NCBI GenBank assembly: GCA_002401635.1
Contig: NVTQ01000025.1
Span: 1 to 11,074, forward strand
DNA from: Pseudomonadota bacterium
GTDB lineage: Bacteria; Pseudomonadota; Zetaproteobacteria; Mariprofundales; Mariprofundaceae
Length of the DNA stretch: 11,074 bases
Direction of reading: 5' to 3'
The translations under genes and the position numbers were made by a program. The number at the start of each line of letters is the position of its first letter. Positions within the stretch are counted from its first letter, which is position 1. This document shows positions 4,532-9,269 of this stretch, one piece after another. The notes under the pieces were generated by a model. It was not told the origin of the DNA and ran no database searches. It saw only the letters and a program-made list of their open reading frames with translations.

Positions 4532-5411
4532 CTGCATCCCCCACATGTACTTTAAATGCCTGAATAGTGTTGGCGAGCAACATGGTGATGGTCATCGGCC
4601 CGACACCACCCGGTACAGGTGTAACCCAAGCAGCACGTTTCGATGCTTCGGCGAAATCAACATCACCCGTCAACGAGCCATTTTCAAGACGATGAATGCC
4701 AACATCAATCACTGTTGCACCTTTTTTAATCCATGCGCCTTGAATCAGCCCCTGTTTACCTGCCGCCGCAACCACAATATCGGCGCGTTCAATATGGCTT
4801 TGTAAATTCTTCGTAAAACGATGGCACACTGTGACCGTTGCACCAGCCAATAAAAGCTCCATAGCCATCGGCCTGCCCACAATATTCGAAGCTCCAACAA
4901 TCACCGCCTCTTTGCCATGCAAATCCTGCCCCGTTTCTTCAAGCAGTTTCATGCAACCGTAGGGCGTGCAAGAGCGTAATGTAGGCTGGCGAACCGTTAA
5001 ACAGCCAACATTGTATGGGTGAAAACCATCCACATCCTTGCTTGGGTTAATAGCACTTAAAATCGCATCCGAATGAATATGCGCAGGCACAGGCAACTGC
5101 ACCAAAATACCATCCACCTTGGGGTCTGCATTCAATTCGCTAATCAAACCCAACAAATGTTGTTGTGTGGTCTCACTGGGTAGCTCGTAGGAAAACGAAG
5201 CAATGCCTGCTTTTTCACAGCCAATCTTTTTATTTTTCACATACACATGCGAAGCAGGGTCAGAACCAACAATAATCACCGCCAAACCTGGAGAACGCCC
5301 ATGTTTCTGCGATAAAATAGTGGATTCATCGTGCATGGCAGCACGCATACGTTCGGCAAGCGCCTTGCCATCAAGAATTTGGGCGGAAGTTGTCTGAGTC
5401 ATATCCCGCAT
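4524..5411 (-). CDS. folD: Bifunctional methylene-THF dehydrogenase / methenyl-THF cyclohydrolase
   Basis: FolD interconverts 5,10-methylene-, methenyl- and 10-formyl-tetrahydrofolate with NADP, so it uses the methylene-THF made by the glycine cleavage system encoded directly downstream. The protein has 295 residues. Motifs seen in order are [17 protein letters not shown] with the conserved Tyr and Lys, [39 protein letters not shown], the dinucleotide-binding [30 protein letters not shown], and the C-terminal [21 protein letters not shown] replaces the more usual GRS in the nucleotide loop, a tolerated variation. Two in-frame ATGs, at 5411 and 5402, are possible starts and neither has a clear Shine-Dalgarno. 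It is the first gene of the operon, with a promoter candidate about 65 nt upstream. Confidence 0.97.
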
Positions 5412-5863: not shown

Positions 5864-6160
5864 GTGACCACATATCTTCTTTCTGAACTTGCTCAGCAGG
5901 ATATTCTTAGCATCCGTGAATACAGCATGGAACAATGGGGAAAAGTACAGACCAATACATATTTAACCTTGTTACAACAACGGCTTGAATGGCTGGCAGG
6001 CAACCCTGCACTGGGCAAAAAAAGAGATGAAATCAAAGCAGGGTACTTTAGCTTCTTAGAGGGCAGGCACATCATTTTTTACCGCCATGCTCATAATGGC
6101 ATTGAAGTTATGTCTATAACCCATCAAAGTGAAGATATTGATACTCATTTCAACAGTTAG
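5864..6160 (+). CDS. Type II toxin, RelE/ParE family (ParE-like), copy 1
   Basis: The 98-residue protein has the ParE layout: a helical hairpin with DILSIREYSMEQWG near residues 13-26, ERLEWLAGNP-like helix 2 (RLEWLAGNPALGKKRDEI), then the strand pair with YFSFLEGRHIIFYRHAHNGIEVMSI and the ending HQSEDIDTHF. The GRHIIFYR core and terminal HQ.xD element are typical of ParE gyrase inhibitors, though the target is not proven by sequence. Translation probably starts at GTG 5864, directly after the antitoxin stop, because the next residues (TTYLLSELAQQDI) match the family N-terminus. Expression is likely coupled to the antitoxin. It appears intact. A 305-bp stretch from 5871 to 6175 recurs at 6522-6826. 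Confidence 0.9.
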   Translation: MTTYLLSELAQQDILSIREYSMEQWGKVQTNTYLTLLQQRLEWLAGNPALGKKRDEIKAGYFSFLEGRHIIFYRHAHNGIEVMSITHQSEDIDTHFNS

Positions 6161-6277
6161 TGCAAAAAAACTATAAATTTAAACAATAAAATGTGCGAAT
6201 CAAACCCCGACCCCATCAGTTCTCAAAACCCTTTTATGTGAGGGGAAGCAGCCCCCCCTTTGCAAGGCTGCGCCGAA

Positions 6278-6493: not shown

Positions 6494-6513
6494 TGATTGC
6501 AAGACCTGACCCT
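6494..6513 (+). repeat. Short dispersed motif, plus copy of an inverted pair
   Basis: TGATTGCAAGACCTGACCCT lies directly before the second ParE copy, and the ParE homology begins 9 nt later, at 6522. The same 20-mer with one change occurs inverted at 7755-7774. A degenerate relative follows both ParE copies (TGTGCGAATCAA at 6192-6203 and 7007-7018). This makes it a likely rearrangement boundary. Confidence 0.5.
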
Positions 6514-6811
6514 AAAAGTTCCATATCTTCTTTCGGAACTTGCTCAGCAGGATATTCTTAGTATCCGTGAATACAGCATGGAACAATGGGGAAACGTACA
6601 GACCAATACATATTTAACCTTGTTACAACAACGGCTTGAATGGCTGGCAGGCAACCCTGCACTGGGCAAAAAAAGAGATGAAATCAAAGCAGGGTACTTT
6701 AGCTTCTTAGAGGGTAGGCATATCATTTTTTACCGCCATGCTAATGATGGCATTGAAATTATATCTATCATCCACCAAAGTGAAGATATTGATGCCCATT
6801 TCAACAGTTAG
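6497..6811 (+). CDS. ParE-like toxin, copy 2 without antitoxin
   Basis: The open frame repeats nearly the whole ParE toxin from PYLLSELAQQ onward. About 16 nucleotide changes over the aligned 305 bp (counted by eye) are concentrated in the 3' third, with no indel, and the reading frame is intact. Amino-acid changes include K-to-N after MEQWG and a run of substitutions in the last 30 residues (HANDGIEIISIIHQ). No antitoxin gene or operator is present. The original GTG start region is replaced by a dispersed motif, so translation would need the TTG at 6497, which has only a weak AGGGA upstream. It may be silent, or an orphan toxin neutralised in trans by the intact antitoxin; this is inference. 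Treat as a probable non-expressed or degenerate copy. Confidence 0.6.
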   Translation: MQDLTLKVPYLLSELAQQDILSIREYSMEQWGNVQTNTYLTLLQQRLEWLAGNPALGKKRDEIKAGYFSFLEGRHIIFYRHANDGIEIISIIHQSEDIDAHFNS

Positions 6812-6826
6812 TGCAAGAAACCTATA

Positions 6827-6987
6827 GGGAACCTCGAAAAACCTAGTTATTTCGTTAAGCTTGTCTTTTTCACCTGTAGCGGTGTTGGATAAAGCGTGCA
6901 ATAGCTAAGGCTATTCCCCATTTTACCCGCCTTGCTACAAGCAAAAAACACCGACGCTTAACTCAGACGAGGCTTTTCGAGGCTCCC
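6827..6987. mobile_element. 161-bp palindromic MITE-like insertion with TATA target duplication
   Basis: The terminal inverted repeats are GGGAACCTCGAAAA (6827-6840) and TTTTCGAGGCTCCC (6974-6987), 13 of 14 matching. TATA flanks both sides (6823-6826 and 6988-6991). The first ParE copy has the equivalent site uninterrupted, CTATAAATTTAAAC at 6171-6184, giving an empty-site control. The whole element is an imperfect palindrome: GTTAAGC/GCTTAAC-type words, TGTAGC/GCTACA and AATAGC/GCTATT recur in mirrored order, and the centre is the TAAG at 6906-6909, exactly the midpoint. It carries no transposase, so it would depend on one acting in trans. The end sequence recalls DDE transposon ends of the IS5 type, but the parent family is not established. 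Confidence 0.85.
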
Positions 6988-7079
6988 TATAGATTTAACA
7001 AGAGAATGTGCGAATCAAGACAGGACAATCGCATTAAAAAACACAGTTTTTCATTATATTTTCAAGCAAACTCCGTAGC

Positions 7080-7412: not shown

Positions 7413-7595
7413 TTATTCTTTATAATTGCCCAAAACACAATGCTTGGTAAAGGTGCCTGCTTCTTGCATTGTCCACTCACTTTGAGACTTATCTTTCATA
7501 TCCTTGCACCATGATTCACTGCTAGGCTCGGCAGAACATCCCGAAAGTAGTGATGCCAGAAATAGTAAGCACATAGCAACTACGGTTTTTTTCAT
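7413..7595 (-). CDS. Small DUF3012-type lipoprotein, copy A
   Basis: This 60-residue protein starts MKKTVVAMCLLFLASLLSGC, a lipoprotein signal peptide with lipobox LLSGC and acylated Cys20. The mature part is about 41 residues with WC near 29-30, MKDKSQSEWTMQEAG and TKHCV near 50-54. The WC..MK.K....W...EA...KHC pattern is that of the DUF3012 family of small lipoproteins, whose function is unknown. The start is fixed by a GAGGAGG ribosome site 5 nt before the ATG at 7595; a longer frame upstream to 7673 is not used. It is 48 of 60 residues identical to copy B. It lies behind a truncated duplicate of the aminotransferase 3' end, so it is probably expressed only from a local or read-through promoter. 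Confidence 0.8.
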   Translation of the reverse strand: MKKTVVAMCLLFLASLLSGCSAEPSSESWCKDMKDKSQSEWTMQEAGTFTKHCVLGNYKE

Positions 7596-7623
7596 ATTGA
7601 CCTCCTCAGCTAACCCAAATTGT

Positions 7624-7716
7624 TCATATCGAACTTGCATAAGCAGCTCTCGCCGCCGCAATGGCAACACCATGATTCACAGGCGCATGCAATCGTGCCA
7701 ACACATCATCCAATGC
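7624..7716 (-). pseudogene. Duplicated C-terminal fragment of the class V aminotransferase
   Basis: The minus strand encodes ALDDVLARLHAPVNHG, then VAIAAARAAYASSI and a stop. This is the last 30 residues of the aminotransferase ending at 8082 with two changes: S-to-A and loss of one Leu near the end. It lies upstream of lipoprotein copy A exactly as the real 3' end lies upstream of copy B. The similarity stops abruptly near 7718, next to a tandem repeat. It cannot make a functional enzyme and marks the edge of a segmental duplication of the aminotransferase-lipoprotein junction. Confidence 0.85.
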
Positions 7717-7718
7717 CG

Positions 7719-7762
7719 TAGGGAGAGGGTCATAGGGAGAGGGTCAATAGGGAGAGGGTCAA
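7719..7762. repeat. Three tandem 14-15-bp repeats TAGGGAGAGGGTCAA
   Basis: The unit TAGGGAGAGGGTCA(A) occurs at 7719-7732, 7733-7747 and 7748-7762 without other changes. The repeat abuts the end of the aminotransferase fragment on one side and overlaps the 20-bp dispersed motif (7755-7774) on the other. It appears to have grown from the AGGGTCAA end of that motif by slippage. Confidence 0.85.
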
Positions 7763-7855: not shown

Positions 7856-7868
7856 GGGACGGTTTATT
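7855..7868 (-). repeat. Short dispersed motif, inverted right copy
   Basis: Reads AATAAACCGTCCCC on the minus strand and pairs with AATAAAACCGTCCCC at 5524-5538. It overlaps the stop codon of lipoprotein copy B and forms the truncation point of the antitoxin relic. Confidence 0.45.
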
Positions 7869-8046
7869 CTTTATAATTACCTAAAACACAATGTTTGGTA
7901 AATATCCCAGCTTCTTTCATTGTCCACTCACTTTGAGACTTCTGTTTCATCTCATTACACCATGATTCACTGCCAGGCTCAGCAGAACATCCCGAAAGTA
8001 GCGGTGCCAGAAATAATAAAAACACAACAACCATCATTTTTTTCAT
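7864..8046 (-). CDS. Small DUF3012-type lipoprotein, copy B
   Basis: A 60-residue lipoprotein starting MKKMMVVVFLLFLAPLLSGC, with lipobox LLSGC and Cys20. Mature part SAEPGSESWCNEMKQKSQSE then WTMKEAGIFTKHCVLGNYKE, with cysteines C30 and C53 as in copy A. It should be exported and anchored to a membrane by acylation. It belongs with the DUF3012-like small lipoproteins of unknown function. The start at 8046 has a perfect AGGAGG 5 nt upstream; an upstream extension to 8085 overlaps the aminotransferase stop and is unlikely. With only 35 nt after the aminotransferase stop it probably ends that operon, and this is likely the original location from which copy A was duplicated. Confidence 0.82.
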   Translation of the reverse strand: MKKMMVVVFLLFLAPLLSGCSAEPGSESWCNEMKQKSQSEWTMKEAGIFTKHCVLGNYKE

Positions 8047-8081
8047 ATTAGCCTCCTCAGCTAAAAACATTCCCCGCTTGT

Positions 8082-9269
8082 TCATATTAAAGAACTTGCA
8101 TAAGCAGCTCTCGCCGACGCAATGGCAACGCCATGATTCACAGGTGCGTGTAAACGTGCCAATACATCATCCAATGCTGCAAGGCATTTAAAGACATTTT
8201 CTTTGCGACAAGCATAACCCATCAAACCAATACGCCATACCTTACCTGCCATCACGCCCAAGCCTGCACCAATTTCCAATTGATAATCCTGAAGCAACAA
8301 GCTCCGCACAGTTGCATCATCCACACCTTCAGGAATCCGCACCGCATTAAGCTGCGGCAACCGCTCCGCTACAGGCACAACAAAATCCAAGCCCACCGCC
8401 TCAAGCCCTGCTTTTAGAGCTTGGTGATGTCGCTGGTGTCGTGCCCATACCTGCTCAAGACCTTCTTCTTTAAGTAGCAATAATGATTCATGCAAGGCAT
8501 ATAGTGCATTCACTGGTGCTGTATGGTGATAAGATCGCTTGTCTGAAGAACCCCAATAACCCATTACCAAATTCAAATCTAAAAGCCAACTTTGCACTGT
8601 TGTTTTACGTTTTTTAATCACATCCAAAGCCGCATCATTCAATGACAACGGCGATAAACCTGGTGTGCATGAGAGACATTTTTGTGTGCCCGAATACACC
8701 GCGTCCACACCCCAATCATCCACCCGCAACGCTGTACCTCCCAGAGAAGTCACTGCATCCACAATGGTTAAACAATCATAACGGTGCGCCACCTCACACA
8801 TGGCTTCCACATCCGTACTTGCACCCGTTGAAGTTTCTGCATGCACAAATGCGACAAAACGTGCCGCTGGATGAGCTTTAAGAGCATCTTCCAACTTATT
8901 CGCATCACATGCCCTACCCCAATCATCATTCACCATAATCGCCGTCGCACCACAGCGTTCAACATTTTCTTTCATGCGTCCACCGAACACGCCATTTTGA
9001 CATACAATAACCGTATCACCAGCCTCTAACAAGTTCACAAAGCATGTTTCCATACCTGCGGAGCCTGGTGCGGATACTGCAATGGCAAGTTCATTTTGCG
9101 TTTGAAATGCATATTGCAAAAGACTTTTCACTTCATCCATCATGGTTACAAACAAAGGATCAAGATGCCCAATCGTTGGGCGAGACATGGCGGCTAAAAT
9201 ACGCGGAGGAACATCCGAAGGTCCTGGTCCCATCAATGTGCGTTGTGGTGGGTAAAATGATGTAATCAT
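8082..9269 (-). CDS. Class V aminotransferase, alanine/serine-glyoxylate type
   Basis: This 395-residue PLP enzyme has the fold-type I class V layout. MGPGPSDVPPRILAAMSRPT at 13-32 and GHLDPLF at 34-40 mark the N-terminal substrate region, SAPGSAGMET near 66-75 the PLP phosphate loop, and DAVTSLGG near 171-178 the pyridine-binding Asp171. SGTQKCLSCTPGLSPLSL carries the expected Schiff-base Lys197, and VWRIGLMGY the carboxylate-binding Arg346. These match alanine-glyoxylate and serine-glyoxylate aminotransferases, which make glycine from glyoxylate; the exact amino donor cannot be read. The ATG overlaps the coaE stop as ATGA. The product could feed the glycine cleavage system encoded at the other end of the window. 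Its last 30 codons recur as a fragment at 7624-7716. Phosphoserine transaminase or cysteine desulfurase are less likely given the GPGPS...GHLDPLF motifs. Confidence 0.9.
   Translation of the reverse strand: MITSFYPPQRTLMGPGPSDVPPRILAAMSRPTIGHLDPLFVTMMDEVKSLLQYAFQTQNELAIAVSAPGSAGMETCFVNLLEAGDTVIVCQNGVFGGRMKENVERCGATAIMVNDDWGRACDANKLEDALKAHPAARFVAFVHAETSTGASTDVEAMCEVAHRYDCLTIVDAVTSLGGTALRVDDWGVDAVYSGTQKCLSCTPGLSPLSLNDAALDVIKKRKTTVQSWLLDLNLVMGYWGSSDKRSYHHTAPVNALYALHESLLLLKEEGLEQVWARHQRHHQALKAGLEAVGLDFVVPVAERLPQLNAVRIPEGVDDATVRSLLLQDYQLEIGAGLGVMAGKVWRIGLMGYACRKENVFKCLAALDDVLARLHAPVNHGVAIASARAAYASSLI

Follow-up and report, generated by a model that had tools for sequence, protein, structure and literature searches.

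The window, i.e., the whole analysed stretch of 11,074 bases, encodes a Phd-ParE pair (PF02604, PF05016; 5619-6160), which is followed by a second parE gene (6497-6811) with 95% identical DNA. The second ParE-type open reading frame (ORF) has no antitoxin gene of its own directly before it, and its stop codon lies 15 bp short of an inserted element of 161 bp (Table 1). Past the element, the sequence from about 7015 to 7171 matches at least seven places in genome G001 and three in genome G003 with identities of 76-81% and represents a further dispersed repeat. A second tandem duplication in the window comprises two DUF3012 genes (7413-7723 and 7864-8184; 86% identical DNA), and the upstream gene is followed by a repeat copy of the 3' end of a class-V aminotransferase gene.

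Table 1. Positions of the inserted element, its parts, and the duplicated parE region in the window.
Feature	Position	Strand	Basis
Duplication copy A, no insert, holds most of parE	5871..6170	+	95% identical to copy B over 300 nt
Empty paralogous site, single TATA	6172..6175	.	sequence read and joint alignment
Second ParE-type ORF, 104 aa, TTG start	6497..6811	+	PF05016, E 1e-16
Duplication copy B, followed by the element	6522..6821	+	homology to A resumes at 6994 (88% over 25 nt)
TATA, target duplication, left copy	6823..6826	.	sequence read
MITE, single long imperfect palindrome, 161 bp	6827..6987	+	sequence read; at least 36 places; hairpin z -5.2
Left terminal inverted repeat GGGAACCTCGAAAAACCT	6827..6844	+	1 mismatch to consensus GGGCACCTCGAAAAACCT
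ERIC-type core, degenerate	6880..6934	+	left tag 6880-6887 CGGTGTTG (module CTGCGTTG); right tag 6928-6934 CGCCTTG intact
Right terminal inverted repeat, complement of GGGAGCCTCGAAAAGCCT	6970..6987	-	3 mismatches to consensus
TATA, target duplication, right copy	6988..6991	.	sequence read

The ends of the element, its length of 161 bp and the TATA on both sides had been proposed in a first-pass annotation, and direct reading confirmed them. The end consensus GGGCACCTCGAAAAACCT occurs with at most three mismatches at only two places in the 11,074 bases, and none of 200 shuffled sequences contained as many. With its small size, 18-bp inverted ends and no evident coding capacity the element has the features of a miniature inverted-repeat transposable element (MITE); a 64-aa ORF on the minus strand covers part of its left half. 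Reading also verified the imperfect palindrome, which is centered on the TAAG at 6906-6909, and the predicted long hairpin was recovered by folding: as RNA, the 161 nt reach -56.3 kcal/mol, compared to -36.2 +/- 3.9 kcal/mol for shuffled sequences (z -5.2; 0/200 as good).

An empty copy of the site with one TATA had been placed at 6171-6184, and the TATA indeed lies within this interval. After removal of the element and one TATA the joint agrees with the other copy of the duplication in 86 of 100 columns, with one 1-bp gap. The empty site was also recovered independently in a search with the joined flanks: among the matches listed, positions 5996-6203 on this contig are the only stretch to which the window joint aligns beyond the boundary (92%, query 1-207). 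The window copy is a MITE that was inserted after the duplication; the observation is confirmed, and the interpretation, including the proposed order of events, is supported by the paralogous empty site and the 95% identity of the two copies. A formal alternative to insertion after the duplication would be that the element excised precisely from the other copy of parE.

The element is multicopy. A BLAST search of its own genome (G000; 2.1 Mb, 79% complete, with the window on contig 76), as suggested in the annotation, revealed at least 36 places at E < 1e-7 including the window copy, a lower bound with 40 of the 48 candidates scored, seven partial copies and one locus that is present twice in the assembly. 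The closest relative of the window copy is 83% identical, so that recent mobility of this copy would be conjectural. Matches were found in 5 of the 61 genomes searched, namely the own genome, the sister genome G003 from the same genus, G032, and two genomes in which the matches are fragments (26 and 47 bp). The 18-base end with at most one mismatch is present in 5 of the 78 genomes of the class (G000 29+34, G003 83+79, G066 2+1, G014 1+0, G032 1+0), while reversed-pattern controls yielded zero. When up to three mismatches were allowed, 41+43 ends were found in the own genome and 88+93 in G003, with 1+1 and 1+0, respectively, in the reversed-pattern control. Plasmid and phage collections contained no relatives of a 169-bp query. 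In total, 62 copies of full length were aligned, of which G000 contributed 26 and G003 36; the mean identities of about 84% within G000, 87% within G003, and 77% between the two are somewhat low, as four rows were misoriented in that comparison.

The proposed 4-bp target duplication was borne out by the copies, their flanks and empty sites. When both flanks of the paired ends were available, the 4-bp flanks were identical in 71/111 cases and the 5-bp flanks in 0/110, a count that includes some register artefacts. TATA is the commonest target, and TACA, TAAA, TTCA, TGGA, TGCA, TACT, and TAAT are also used. A TA target with longer ends, as in the IS630/Correia type, was rejected, because related copies have the non-TATA 4-bp targets TGGA, TTCA, TGCA, TACT, and TAAT. 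The comparison of orthologous loci, which had also been suggested, was performed with the joined flanks of 18 of the 26 own-genome copies in 11 genomes of the genus and refers to the matches listed. It revealed orthologous empty sites for five other copies and no orthologue of the window site itself. In three of the five the exact 4-bp target is present once: TGGA (in the context TTGGA) in G003 and G006 for L019, TATA in G009 for L008:189, and TTCA in G001 (77% identity) for L008:1502. At the empty site of L006 both G006 and G009 read TATC, and the site of L002 is aligned across in four genomes, with indels at the junction. The G003 alignments at both L008 sites are too poor to be read, and a sixth copy, L013, aligns across at 71% in G006. 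Together, the paralogous and the five orthologous empty sites provide a clear insertion history for the window. Several window-type copies (at L004, L011, L020, L022, L024) share common flanking sequence (e.g., ..GCTGAATGACTATA), hinting that the repeat is composite or that a nested target is preferred. In G032 one window-type element (L031/L036; G032:C93:4701-5049) is split near its center by roughly 180 bp of other sequence.

As had been noted, the window contains no transposase gene. Public genomes contain at least 111 stretches with exact ends; besides the sister genome, these are mostly from beta- and gamma-proteobacteria by record title. The exact 18-bp end also occurs in records of Baldrarchaeum (L134), Dietzia (L084), and Propionibacterium (L184), for which transfer, contamination or chance are possible. 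The recommended search for full-size transposons with the same ends uncovered IS5-type elements: eight end pairs at distances of 1,232-1,280 bp enclose a transposase-like ORF of 217-352 aa, i.e., they are insertion sequences (IS) in other bacteria. The 345-aa transposase from Pseudogulbenkiania ferrooxidans (L100) matches NF033581 (transpos_IS5_4, E 9e-90) and contains DDE_Tnp_1 and DUF772; it is the only one of the eight that was scanned, the others being alike by eye and two having shortened ORFs. Two of the seven IS with both flanks have 4-bp target repeats. In this IS5-family group (e.g., L100, L110 of Duganella lactea, and the IS of G078) most of the eight IS have a left end that matches that of the MITE at all 18 bp, and the right end is GGGCACCTCGAATAACC or similar. 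The IS differ from the MITE by their size of 1.23-1.28 kb and their transposase ORF, and the interior of the MITE shares with them at most short-word similarity (best 15 nt, E 0.004).

Within the class, a transposase match at E <= 1e-40 was found in only one of the 78 genomes, G078 (53% identity), which belongs to the same family as the source genome. It contains two identical 1,245-bp IS copies (L197, L198) with a 347-aa ORF, flanked by TATG/TATG and AGGG/AGGG. Their ends, GGGAACCTCGAAAAACCG and GGGGACCTCGATCAACCG, have 2 and 4 mismatches of 18 to the MITE consensus and hence escaped the search with at most one mismatch (0 matches), and one of them is identical with the first 17 bases of the left end of the window element. 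In the own genome, 79% complete, no DDE_Tnp_1 domain (PF01609) was found, and a single partial match had 31% identity to the L100 transposase. The sister genome G003 has one gene of 30% identity, and the respective element bears other ends, GGGAGGTGCTGATTAA. Weakly similar transposases in G000, G003, and G032 were rejected as helpers, because the ends in question are not paired beside any of them (at most 4/15 mismatches). Thus, the element has many copies and its ends are shared with autonomous IS, so that neither of the outcomes named as refuting in the annotation was observed, and a helper transposase was found neither in the 79% complete own assembly nor in G003. The annotation had postulated a helper acting in trans, which fits these results. 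The IS of G078 is the best candidate in the class, and a helper in the same family is plausible as judged from the similarity of ends and transposases.

Comparison of same-end MITEs across taxa uncovered a core module, CTGCGTTG-stem/loop-CGCCTTG. The two tags are common to a 141-bp type of Rhodocyclales, a 143-bp type of Halothiobacillus and Burkholderiales, and the 161-bp window type. The exact tag pair is present in place in 9/36 same-end MITEs of other taxa and absent in the 96-, 99-, 120-121-, and 153-bp types; its absence from 27/36 indicates that the ends are not tied to the core. Among the 62 window-type copies the left tag is exact in 26, the right tag in 57, and both are exact in 22.

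Two covariance models of the core were used. R1 was built from G121 only. R2 was built from alignment A4, i.e., 39 matches at E <= 0.01 from 44 of the 50 loci L263-L312; three loci of G376 (L284, L295, L306) were left out on purpose, and L293, L301, and L304 because of messy flanks. R2 contains neither ERIC nor window-type copies, and it includes cores of G040 and G061, which belong to the order and family of the window genome and have other ends. The core of the window copy is degenerate and not significant alone (R1 E 0.18, the best in the window; R2 E 0.23, second to a chance match at 4712-4742), and therefore core membership rests on the family and not on this copy. Of 31 window-type elements, 27 were hit by R2 at the core position with E <= 1, including six with E <= 0.01 (best 2e-4 in 88 kb); six further hits are elsewhere, two of which are in a second MITE family. 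Ten same-end MITEs from Rhodocyclales, Halothiobacillus, Burkholderiales, and Methylophilaceae bins were matched at E < 0.001 (best 2e-8). With an HMM built from the interior of the window type, the MITEs of other taxa yielded no homologue, in contrast to the tags and the covariance models, which do find them. Rfam contains no family that matches the window at gathering score, and scanning of 14 core loci gave a single weak match (mir-35, E 0.69); therefore, a known Rfam RNA was discarded as the identity of the core.

The structure of the core is seen in G121, most copies of which read CTGCGTTG-stem-TGCTCA-stem/loop-CTSCGC-stem-CGCCTTG. In 16 of 18 G121 cores (set A3, without one core that belongs to another class and one that has a deletion) 91.9% of the cells pair (shuffled 66.6), double changes are present in 17/17 pairs, and the covariation is 0.720, compared to 0.223 in shuffled alignments (0/500 as high) and 0.243 in the best slide. 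For the 39 cores from several genomes, three of them from G121, the values are 87.4% pairing (shuffled 53.6) and a covariation of 0.353 versus 0.099; this alignment was fitted to the structure, and 16/500 shuffles had as many doubly changed pairs and 10/500 as many pair types as observed. The loops of the core are conserved and mispaired, while the surrounding stems covary. Inside the window-type family the support for the hairpin is mixed. For the palindrome of the window copy, the 62 copies have 66 cells with double changes, compared to 35.8 after shuffling and at most 32 after sliding. However, the number of doubly changed pairs (15 versus 13.5; reached by 98/500 shuffles) and of pair types (49 versus 50.3; reached by 430/500) does not exceed the shuffled level, and RNAalifold kept 22 pairs, one of them doubly changed.

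Template switching can keep the arms of a palindrome complementary without selection. The element might be an ordinary internal-deletion MITE with a neutral interior, a palindrome derived from easily formed inverted dimers, and tags that are present by chance or by functionless descent. This would agree with the divergence of the copies, the mixed hairpin support, the missing tag pair in most of the same-end MITEs, and the fact that no phenotype is known here. However, a neutral process that keeps palindromes would make the loops complementary, and the conservation of non-complementary loops argues against a merely palindromic leftover. In addition, none of the eight IS contains CTGCGTTG, four contain a single CGCCTTG and none the pair, and the exact pair recurs in the ERIC consensus and between differing ends. 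This explanation is thus improbable. The conserved mispaired loops and the compensated stem changes rather point to selection on a folded single strand, either RNA or single-stranded DNA, and would predict a specific partner, a protein or an RNA process.

The tag pattern CTGCGTTG-N35-65-CGCCTTG has at least one match in 217 of 398 genomes of the phylum. Many single matches are due to chance: the flanks in the 30 genomes at the top of the list have a median inverted-repeat score of 8, as in the null set, and 3/30 exceed the 95% point of the null set, which is 12. In repeat-bearing genomes the median is 19, and 43 of the 47 scored loci (of 50) are above 12. Just inside the tags, pairing was at 34/85 positions in 17 genomes (17 of the first 18 listed, G240 being omitted as a near-duplicate; shuffled 35.2) versus 69/90 positions in 18 cores picked by eye from 17 genomes (shuffled 41.1; 0/2,000 as high). 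It should be noted that most core loci were collected by the tag pattern, so that the tag conservation among them is circular.

The core is situated inside many differing inverted repeats, namely GGGCACCTCGAAAAACCT, GGGAGGTGCTGATTAAC, GTAACTATTCAGCTCA, TAGGGCGTGTCCTCAATTAG, GGAAACACTGAAT, AGTGTCCTGTGTCACAAATGC, AGAGCCTGTTCACG, AGAACCTATCTCAGTAG, AGAAGGTGTGAA, CTTGTGAAAAA, GAAACCTCTG, CAGGCTGTTGAAAAAC, GGCAATAAGTTG, and the ATACCC of ERIC, although some of these end types may be distant relatives of each other. With strict filters R2 matched 34/61 genomes at E <= 0.01. G273 has three end types in one genome, and the own genome carries the core with at least three kinds of ends: R2 found 23 places at E <= 1 and 18 at E <= 0.01 (best 2.4e-7), the window copy not being among them. 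Tags were found in 11/23 of these loci, two of which are chance-like; GTAACTATTCAG-type ends are present in five and GGAAGCGCTGA-type ends in four, one of the latter (L333) at 210 bp from the model match. In G001, G008, and G009 there are 22, 29, and 23 R2 matches though the window-type end is absent (0 at most one mismatch). Target duplications of other end types were read as one 8-bp, one 4-bp, and four 2-bp cases in 37 of 40 fetched regions that were scored, and the automatic reading mostly failed because the palindrome runs beyond the ends. A second MITE family with a similar core, present in G000 and G003, has the ends GGGAGGTGCTGATTAACTC (GGGAGGTGCTGATTAAC). Its loci include L124 and L169, its ends match an IS with a 318-aa transposase (L191:1342-2488; G003:C6), and it is nested in the first family at L075 and L081. 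G039 has at least 86 core matches, and the fetched ones mostly have GTAACTACTCAG-type ends.

How the same core came to lie between different ends could be explained by recombination between MITEs, with the core being a hot spot of recombination that swaps ends and not a functional module. An element of this kind exists: in the hybrid L055 of G003 the left half comes from the window family and the right half from the GGGAGGTGC family, with the junction in the core. However, it is a single case, a hybrid whose ends differ should be unable to transpose, and the covariation of the stems would be left without explanation, so that end swapping appears rather unlikely. Alternatively, the core could be a small mobile element in its own right, similar to REP and moved by a tyrosine transposase, that inserts into MITEs. 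REP/REPIN elements with their GTAG/CGTC tags are dispersed stem-loops with unpaired tags, and, according to the available part of a published account, REP units often lie close together in opposite orientation (PMC3733652). Likewise, the cores of G359 occur in opposed pairs about 108 bp apart, and one MITE bounded by CTAGGGGGCGTTCTCAATTAG (L308; G175:C47) contains two cores in opposite orientation. However, the REP units described there have 20-40 bp and a tag at one end (PMC3733652), whereas here the apex has a different tag on each side, and the entire structure is inside a MITE bounded by inverted repeats. Furthermore, the core is central in the palindrome, with the arms running outward, in 43/47 loci, while an inserted unit would sit anywhere. 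A REP-like origin is therefore even less probable than end swapping. The carriage of one module by different transposon ends is the reading that we prefer.

The occurrence of the tag pair in ERIC is of special interest, because ERIC is in use for strain typing and, to our knowledge, its origin and its mover are unsettled. The divergence of ERIC among Gammaproteobacteria has reportedly been treated by Zo in 2011. The E. coli ERIC consensus contains CTGCGTTG-N60-CGCCTTG at positions 27-101 of 127, while the tag pattern was found in 0/200,000 mononucleotide shuffles of the consensus. The sequence used is the reverse complement of that of Wilson and Sharp in the form in which it is printed in PMC2759123. 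ERIC was noticed via tag-pattern hits in G376, from one of which L313-L315 were then found by BLAST; therefore, the printed consensus alone is independent of the pattern. In ERIC copies R1 gave E-values of 1.1e-6 for Pantoea, 1.9e-5 for E. coli, and 0.018 for Klebsiella (15 kb), and R2 gave 2.2e-6 for G376, 4.2e-6 for E. coli, 5.1e-6 for Pantoea, and 0.16 for Klebsiella, while three further G376 cores were at 1.4e-4 to 1.6e-4. The ERIC primers, which occur as terms in ERIC-PCR papers, have 4 mismatches each to L295 and 1-4 to L313-L315. At another locus of G376, L306, three ERIC-like cores are located between tRNA repeats, and their arms are unlike the ends of ERIC.

Like the window family, ERIC (enterobacterial repetitive intergenic consensus; IRU, RU-1; 127 bp) is palindromic and dispersed and has the tags around its center. 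However, the window element has neither the 127-bp consensus nor the TATACCC ends and is no ERIC element: it is 161 bp long, its interior is otherwise unlike, and it has IS5-type ends and 4-bp targets, in contrast to the ends TATACCC..GGGTATA of ERIC with TA at the termini, as given in the available part of PMC2229807. Other short, non-autonomous elements, namely YPAL (RU-2), Correia/NEMIS, RUP, and Nezha, mostly have inverted ends and target duplications according to the accessible sections of two sources (PMC2229807, PMC3733652). For Candidatus Thiomargarita a MITE has been described that has a long hairpin and is bounded by TATAG as terminal direct repeats (PMC4853749, section on group I introns). 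The tag pattern was absent from the printed S. enterica ERIC copy and from the published sequences of YPAL and RU-3. The latter two are thus unlike the core-bearing MITEs, and YPAL was rejected as a relative. Literature listings and the available parts of PMC10969869, PMC3733652, PMC2229807, PMC2267715, PMC2759123, PMC4853749, and PMC12306157 contain no statement that links ERIC to a core common to MITEs of other ends. What seems to be new here is that the center of the window family resembles a structured module that also occurs in ERIC and in MITEs bounded by other ends. ERIC may well be one member of a class of palindromic mobile elements that extends over the Pseudomonadota, the conserved unit of which would be the core CTGCGTTG-stem-GCTC-stem/loop-CTSCG-stem-CGCCTTG, carried by many kinds of ends and working as a folded single strand. 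If the center of ERIC is a module that is carried between identifiable IS ends, its origin and its mobilizer would become testable where a helper is known, and G078 offers a known helper candidate for such tests.

The window element itself is a MITE, a non-autonomous transposon, with ends of the IS5 group, and its family probably holds a portable ERIC-type core that would act after folding. As for its history, the parE segment was duplicated first, and the MITE was then inserted 15 bp past the stop codon of the second copy. An IS5-group transposase supplied in trans would bind the inverted ends, the insertion would take place at a staggered 4-bp cut, often at TNNA and above all at TATA, and repair of the cut would leave the 4-bp duplications. 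While the target duplications and the empty sites are observed, this enzymology of the insertion is what we infer. The core would be the portable module that different transposon ends carry and that acts after folding. It could act as RNA in untranslated regions, for which we see slightly less than an even chance, and a role as a DNA hairpin in transposition or replication is nearly as probable. According to a review, ERIC insertions at gene 3' ends of Yersinia enterocolitica act through an RNase E site and thereby alter the amount of transcript (PMC10969869). The genomic context of the 62 window-type copies was derived from crude ORF calls. Convergent genes surround 17 copies, tandem genes 30, and divergent genes 8, while 7 have one neighbor missing, and five of the 62 copies are inside an ORF of at least 80 aa. 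Within 60 bp of the copies are 23 gene 3' ends versus 18 gene 5' ends, and neither position nor orientation stands out clearly. At the gene 3' ends 14 copies are in the same sense and 9 in the opposite sense, where a role as folded RNA would predict a bias.
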